Shown here: positions 33,545-33,707 of the stretch, in pieces
Layout: each line of letters begins with the position of its first letter
Position numbering within the stretch: position 1 is the stretch's first letter
DNA from: Thioclava atlantica
GTDB taxonomy: Bacteria > Pseudomonadota > Alphaproteobacteria > Rhodobacterales > Rhodobacteraceae
Direction: 5' to 3'
DNA length: 64,000 bases
Assembly (NCBI RefSeq): GCF_000737065.1
Contig: NZ_AQRC01000017.1
Coordinates: 1-64,000 of the forward strand
The notes under the pieces: model-generated
Databases searched by the model: none
What the model saw: only the letters and a program-made list of their open reading frames with translations
Told to the model about the DNA's origin: nothing
Made by a program: the position numbers and the translations under genes

Positions 33545-33572
33545 AAAAAGCCCCCGGCTTTCAGGCGGGGGC
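33545..33572 (-). terminator. Attenuator terminator of the ilv operon
   Basis: Read on the minus strand, a GC-rich 5' arm (33572-33565) and 3' arm (33558-33550) form a stem of about 8 bp with a one-base bulge and a small loop, followed by TTTTTC (33549-33544). It lies 66 bases before ilvB and 27 bases after the leader-peptide stop, the layout of a classical attenuator. Confidence 0.85.
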
Positions 33573-33614
33573 GCATGGGAACCTTCATGGTCAAACCGTT
33601 ACCGGCCCATGCGC
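33571..33614 (-). promoter_or_regulatory. Alternative (antiterminator-type) stem in the ilv leader
   Basis: GCGCATGGG in the last codons of the leader peptide (33614-33606) is perfectly complementary to CCCATGCGC (33579-33571), whose end overlaps the first two pairs of the terminator's 5' arm. The two stems are therefore partly exclusive. A ribosome terminating at the leader stop would cover the first arm and free the terminator. Confidence 0.65.
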
Positions 33615-33649
33615 TTGGCTCCTACGACGACAAGAAGAATCGCATCCAT
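33599..33649 (-). CDS. ilv leader peptide (16 aa, Ile-Leu-Leu-Val-Val-Val)
   Basis: A short frame from ATG 33649 to TAA 33599 encodes MDAILLVVVGAKRMGR. Six consecutive codons are for the three branched-chain amino acids (ATT CTT CTT GTC GTC GTA). AAAGGGA lies 7 bases upstream of the ATG. Together with the promoter 30 bases upstream and the attenuator downstream this is a textbook branched-chain leader peptide: when Ile/Leu/Val-tRNAs are scarce the ribosome stalls and ilvB-ilvH are read. It is unlikely to have a function as a protein. Confidence 0.9.
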   Translation of the reverse strand: MDAILLVVVGAKRMGR

Positions 33650-33678
33650 TGCGGATCCCTTTCGAATGCTTCGGGCGG

Positions 33679-33707
33679 ACATTAGGAGCGGCGGATTTGG
33701 GCGTCAA
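33679..33707 (-). promoter_or_regulatory. Sigma70-type promoter of the ilv leader and ilvB
   Basis: On the minus strand TTGACG (33707-33702) and TAATGT (33684-33679) are separated by exactly 17 bases. Initiation about 7 bases downstream (near 33672) would leave a 5' leader of roughly 23 bases before the leader-peptide ATG. Confidence 0.75.

Follow-up and report, generated by a model that had tools for sequence, protein, structure and literature searches.

A probable ribosome-mediated attenuator upstream of ilvB-ilvH in Thioclava atlantica and related leaders upstream of efflux transporter genes in Alphaproteobacteria

INTRODUCTION

The attenuators of enterobacterial ilvGMEDA, ilvB, and leu combine control codons with an alternative stem and an intrinsic terminator. 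The leader that precedes ilvB-ilvH in Thioclava atlantica, within the 64,000-nucleotide stretch of DNA analyzed here (the window), would work in the same manner, although its leader peptide is shorter than the enterobacterial ones, no conserved pause hairpin (1:2) was seen, and the overlap between its alternative stem and terminator amounts to just 2 to 3 nt. An upstream open reading frame and an attenuator also precede ilvB in the ilvBNC genes of Corynebacterium, for which a three-hairpin model has been proposed (PMC11857589, PMC10272879); these bacteria are unrelated to Thioclava, and we liken the two arrangements by description, an upstream frame and an attenuator before ilvB being common to both. 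For Alphaproteobacteria, PMC1273637 credits the description of an ilvB leader peptide to Vitreschak et al. (2004), and because of that credit we count the attenuator in the window as a member of an already known type of ilvB leader-peptide control. Our comparison with the element of Vitreschak et al. runs through this citation: the likeness lies in a leader peptide before alphaproteobacterial ilvB, and our description of the P1/P2 pairing pattern and of an element shared with efflux genes comes from the sequences analyzed here.

RESULTS AND DISCUSSION

Anatomy of the ilvB leader

A first-pass annotation of the window had proposed a promoter, a ribosome-binding site, a 16-codon frame, a 9-bp alternative stem, and a terminator followed by T5 upstream of ilvB, and each of these was found on the minus strand at the position given for it (Table 1). 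Its further claims, that the frame holds six consecutive Ile/Leu/Val codons and that the first arm of the alternative stem lies within the closing codons of the leader frame, were likewise borne out. The two genes behind the leader belong to the branched-chain pathway, matching the control codons, and the nearest named relatives of the IlvB protein are those of Thioclava pacifica (94%) and T. marina (93%). Over both strands of the 64 kb, the leader is the sole ATG frame of 8 to 35 codons that has a ribosome site and at least five Ile/Leu/Val codons in six; 45 ATG frames of this length with a ribosome site are present in the 64 kb, and just 1 of the 45 contains an Ile/Leu/Val-rich run.

Table 1. 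Features of the attenuator and the genes downstream of it, in window coordinates
Feature	Position	Strand	Evidence or remark
Whole attenuator	33707-33545	(-)	Order: promoter, ribosome site, leader frame, P1/P2, terminator
Promoter, TTGACG (33707-33702), 17-nt spacer, TAATGT (33684-33679)	33679..33707	(-)	Sequence
Ribosome-binding site GAAAGGGA, core GAAAGGG	33656..33663	(-)	Sequence; purine-rich site in most relatives
Leader peptide gene, MDAILLVVVGAKRMGR then stop, 16 codons, ATG 33649, TAA 33601-33599	33599..33649	(-)	Sequence, conservation
Control codons ATT CTT CTT GTC GTC GTA, uninterrupted	33640-33623	(-)	Within leader MDAILLVVVGAKRMGR
P1 5' arm GCGCATGGG, within the leader's final codons	33606..33614	(-)	Sequence; compensated in divergent relatives
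P2 hairpin CCG-GUAA-CGG, leader stop codon in loop	33596..33605	(-)	Sequence, alignment
P3 short hairpin ACC AUGAA GGU, between P2 and P1 3' arm	33581..33591	(-)	Sequence; weak
P1 3' arm CCCATGCGC, complementary to GCGCATGGG, 9 bp	33571..33579	(-)	Sequence, folding, alignment
Intrinsic terminator GCCCCCG/CGGGGGC (33572-33566/33556-33550), then T5 (33549-33545)	33545..33572	(-)	Sequence, folding, alignment
ilvB, acetolactate synthase large subunit, 581 aa	31734..33479	(-)	PRK09107 1117 bits, TIGR00118 770 bits
ilvH/ilvN, acetolactate synthase small subunit, 186 aa	31083..31643	(-)	TIGR00119 172 bits

A generic scanner reported neither the promoter nor the terminator at this site, and we judge this empty scan to be a limit of the scanner. 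The -10 hexamer TAATGT matches the E. coli consensus at only 3 of 6 positions.

Conservation among Rhodobacterales

We gathered 80 named Rhodobacterales ilvB loci by IlvB similarity, so that the leader itself was not used in their selection. Leader, P1, and terminator were present upstream of ilvB in nearly all of them (two leaders, at L067 and L084, were found by eye, and L105 is truncated at a contig end), with 81 to 174 nt between the leader stop codon and ilvB; at L100, leader and terminator are present but the stem is a different one. TTGAC occurs in all 102 distinct upstream regions, compared with 8% of shuffles, and in all 102 the -10 region that comes after it is conserved (T 0.96, A 0.95, then AATGT). 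The P3 pattern ACCATnnnGGT was found again in many relatives when upstream regions were compared, and in the terminator alignment 99.7% of cells are paired, with changes on both sides at two pairs. It is the conservation of TTGAC and of the codon run that excludes a chance origin, not folding energy, which is uninformative as evidence for the attenuator, the natural fold being no more stable than shuffles (z = -0.70).

A covariance model, R1, was built from alignment A1, in which 1 of the 52 rows is a transporter leader (L026 in genome G037). R1 has a match in 169 of 198 Rhodobacteraceae genomes. In the T. atlantica genome it is convincing only at the attenuator (93.1 bits, with the next match at 18.5 bits), and second matches in 13 Rhodobacteraceae genomes are mostly chance (24 to 27 bits), the exception being L246, which stands before a transporter gene. 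Genome G263 carries a second copy of the element upstream of a second ilvB.

The first-pass annotation had suggested looking for the codon run before ilvB in other Rhodobacterales, and had named its absence from relatives beforehand as the outcome that would count against an attenuator. The run is retained: in 100 distinct leaders (one of which is the L026/G037 transporter leader, in the codon counts as in the folding below), Ile, Leu, or Val occupies five codon positions in 97, 97, 96, 96, and 80% of cases. The residues permute freely, with T at the second codon base in 80 to 97% at the five positions. Synonymous codons that are rare in ilvB of the same genome group are enriched in the leaders, namely, GTA (55.7% versus 2.5%), CTA (18.9% versus 0.8%), CTT (53% versus 10%), and ATT (58.3% versus 8.8%). 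Among Rhodobacterales relatives, the peptide end R-M-G-R-stop is conserved, and in nearly all of the 100 leaders the stop codon falls within the P2 loop. This loop is usually a GNRA tetraloop (GUAA or GUGA), and TAG stops occur in only 4 of the 100.

A conserved multihelix core, P1-P2-P3, adjoining a terminator might also suggest a riboswitch-like RNA that binds a protein or metabolite and contains a short frame only incidentally. However, codon-level selection on Ile/Leu/Val, with permuting residues and rare synonymous codons, and the almost invariable placement of the stop codon in P2 both argue against an incidental frame, and an Rfam search of the leader region returned no family, riboswitches included, at gathering score. 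We regard such an RNA as very unlikely here and consider that the leader is, with high probability, a ribosome-mediated transcription attenuator of ilvB-ilvH.

The ilvB upstream regions from 60 genomes of the class were searched for the same leader form; among them the RMGR leader was confined to Rhodobacteraceae, which rules it out as a general feature of alphaproteobacterial ilvB. Upstream of ilvB in other alphaproteobacterial families (L188, L198, L199, and L200), differing short frames with Ile/Leu/Val runs, for example MTTQLVLIRQPLSGRD and MSLLIVPCAPNEGLA, each closed by a stop codon, are followed by terminator-like hairpins. Judging from these sequences, attenuation of ilvB may be wider in Alphaproteobacteria, with other RNA cores. 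Further ilvB upstream regions from several other families (L146, L150, L151, L161, L167, and L173) have in common a promoter-like block, with TAGGGTGCGC or a close variant of it at the end, and lack an RMGR leader.

Pairing of P1 at the base of the terminator

According to the first-pass annotation, stalling and termination of translation would have opposite effects, and it asked whether the two stems exclude each other. We folded the leaders with a constrained ribosome footprint whose limits were assumed (18 nt upstream of the A site and 11 nt downstream). With the ribosome in the codon run of the window leader, the calculated pairing is 0.91 for P1 and 0.34 to 0.36 for the outer two terminator pairs; once the ribosome has moved to the stop codon, P1 no longer forms and terminator pairing is 0.99 to 1.00. 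The predicted opposition is therefore seen in the window only at the outer terminator pairs, since the inner pairs remain near 0.99 even with the ribosome stalled because P1 and the terminator have just two bases in common, the final 2 nt of the P1 3' arm (33572-33571). The calculated exclusion between the two stems is likewise only partial, reaching no further in the window than the outer two pairs. Over the 100 leaders, outer terminator pairs averaged 0.40 with the ribosome stalled versus 0.88 at the stop codon, and a shift greater than 0.1 in this direction was obtained for 83. The overlap grows to 3 nt in leaders whose codon preceding CGC has GG at its end (as in W- or R-R-M-G-R). The swap depends on the stall position, since P1 is already covered by a ribosome that halts on the final Ile/Leu/Val codon. 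On this model, the opposite effects of the ribosome are predicted to act on the terminator base beside the U-tract and not on the whole stem.

A second set of 30 ilvB loci was taken from genomes of the family in which the R1 match is weak or absent. About 20 of the 30 retain both a leader containing a run of Ile/Leu/Val codons and a terminator, in differing letters. In several, P1 pairing is retained with other letters, as in GCGCAGUCGC/GCGACUGCGC and GCGCAUCG/CGAUGCGC, and further compensated stems are GCGCUUG/CAAGCGC and GCGCGGG/CCCGCGC, each found twice. Stems below 0.05 against shuffles number 7 of 18, where about 1 is expected. This excess and the complementarity that persists while the letters change argue for selection on P1 pairing. 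The same observation bears on whether GCGCATGGG...CCCATGCGC, a near-perfect and strongly conserved 9-bp inverted repeat, could instead be the operator of a DNA-binding repressor: an operator would not be expected to vary in its letters while keeping its complementarity, nor to lie some 60 to 100 nt downstream of the start and partly inside the leader frame, and we think this explanation highly improbable.

In the divergent relatives P1 stops 1 to 4 nt short of the terminator without overlap, and the calculated terminator probability does not respond to ribosome position. Strict mutual exclusion of P1 and the terminator is hence not the conserved principle, given an overlap of two bases in the window and none in these relatives. 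As far as the sequences indicate, what has been conserved is the placement of a helix up against the terminator rather than an overlap.

For the attenuator in the window we propose the following sequence of events. RNA polymerase would start near 33672, the expected transcription start, with a ribosome translating the 16-codon leader behind it. In cells well supplied with Ile, Leu, and Val, this ribosome would reach UAA and cover the P1 5' arm, and the terminator would halt transcription ahead of ilvB. When charged tRNAs for the rare Ile/Leu/Val codons are short, the ribosome would stall in the codon run, and P1, enclosing P2 and P3, would form flush against the terminator, taking 2 nt of the terminator base beside the U-tract, so that polymerase would continue into ilvB-ilvH. 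The sequences and calculations show the anatomy, how it is conserved, the bias in codon use, and a computed shift at the terminator base; from these we infer that the promoter is used, that the leader is translated, that transcription terminates, and that starvation relieves this termination. Relief of termination by P1 would most likely come from a helix that stacks on the terminator base and forms before the terminator is transcribed.

The same element before efflux transporter genes

Outside Rhodobacteraceae, R1 matches above 46 bits stand not before ilvB but before genes for a Bcr/CflA-family efflux transporter (TIGR00710, 212.8 bits, cutoff 200.9). The leaders here are Val rich with a basic end, as in MNPKSVVVVVSRRCMVR, MTVTTVVVGAWRLDR, MHLLNTVVVGARRPGR, and MNTGVVLVGSRRMDR, each followed by a stop codon, and leaders of this type occur in many alphaproteobacterial families (L216 to L225, L229, and L246; L111 and L201 to L205). 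One candidate ilvB leader, L026/G037, was rejected when a Bcr/CflA transporter proved to lie downstream of it. As R1 and its alignment A1 include this transporter leader, the clean reciprocal test is a second covariance model, R2, built only from eleven transporter leaders. R2 recovers the ilvB leader of the window (33661-33545) at 72 bits (E = 3e-20), its only match at E values up to 0.001 in this genome. One Rhodobacteraceae genome, G324, carries the element in two places, upstream of ilvB (L239) and upstream of the transporter gene (L246), the latter with a peptide read by eye as MSFLNVVVSVRCVVR and a stop. A protein search for the transporter across Rhodobacteraceae and the class was uninformative, as it also missed known positives at the cutoff used.

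In one Rhizobiales family (L111, L202, L204, and L205), the leader ATG lies only about 10 to 16 nt past the -10 box (as in TTGACC...TTAATCTCTCTCGCCATG). By analogy with what is reported for Sinorhizobium trpL, translation of the Rhizobiales transporter leader may start on a leaderless RNA.

Positions 33650-33535 of the window match the full length of the Rfam model RF02502 (Atu_C8, "Rhizobiales sRNA") with 22.9 bits (E = 0.035), below the model's gathering score of 50. Rhizobiales relatives score well above that (L111, 1501-1620, 98.8 bits; L203, 1501-1619, 82.2 bits), and in the one genome family examined, Atu_C8 members above the cutoff lie just upstream of the Bcr/CflA transporter. Like the window leader, these copies have a short Ile/Leu/Val frame (for example, MRMMQVSVVVGRRMGKAA and a stop), a GCGCAUGGG/CCCAUGCGC stem, a central hairpin, and a terminator in the same order; unlike it, they precede the transporter instead of ilvB, and their peptide has additional residues after R-M-G. 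We infer that Atu_C8 is the released attenuator RNA, or 5' leader, and not a free-standing trans-acting sRNA.

Could the released short RNA or the leader peptide nevertheless act in trans in addition to attenuation in cis? There is precedent in the trp attenuator of Sinorhizobium meliloti, whose rnTrpL and peTrpL act in trans as RNA and peptide (PMC10117765, PMC7298713). The letters of GCGCATGGGCCGGTAACGG and CCCATGCGCCCCCG and the peptide end R-M-G-R are conserved beyond the needs of pairing, and the Rhizobiales relative is filed in Rfam as an sRNA. However, divergent relatives alter both the P1 letters and the peptide end while keeping the pairing, which fits a cis role, and we consider an added trans function unlikely.

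Considering the ilvB and transporter leaders together, we tentatively raise the idea, which we hold to be plausible though short of probable, that a single module (a Val-rich leader, P1 abutting the terminator, and the stop codon in the P2 loop) was recruited in Alphaproteobacteria before both acetolactate synthase and an unrelated Bcr/CflA pump, that stalling of ribosomes at valine codons turns on the pump, and that termination is relieved by stacking on the terminator base and not by arm sharing. In literature that excluded most subscription journals, we found nothing relevant on Atu_C8, on Bcr/CflA attenuation, or on transcription starts of Rhodobacteraceae ilvB, and came across no paper that describes the transporter leaders or equates them with the ilvB leader.

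Significance

The attenuator explains the likely control of the branched-chain pathway across Rhodobacterales, and its relatives form a natural series of compensated stems with and without overlap that makes the mechanism of P1 directly testable. Its links to Atu_C8 and to efflux-pump genes suggest two things: an RNA supposed to be a trans-acting sRNA would instead be an attenuated 5' leader, and valine supply, or translation and ribosome stalling, may be what controls a gene for an efflux pump.
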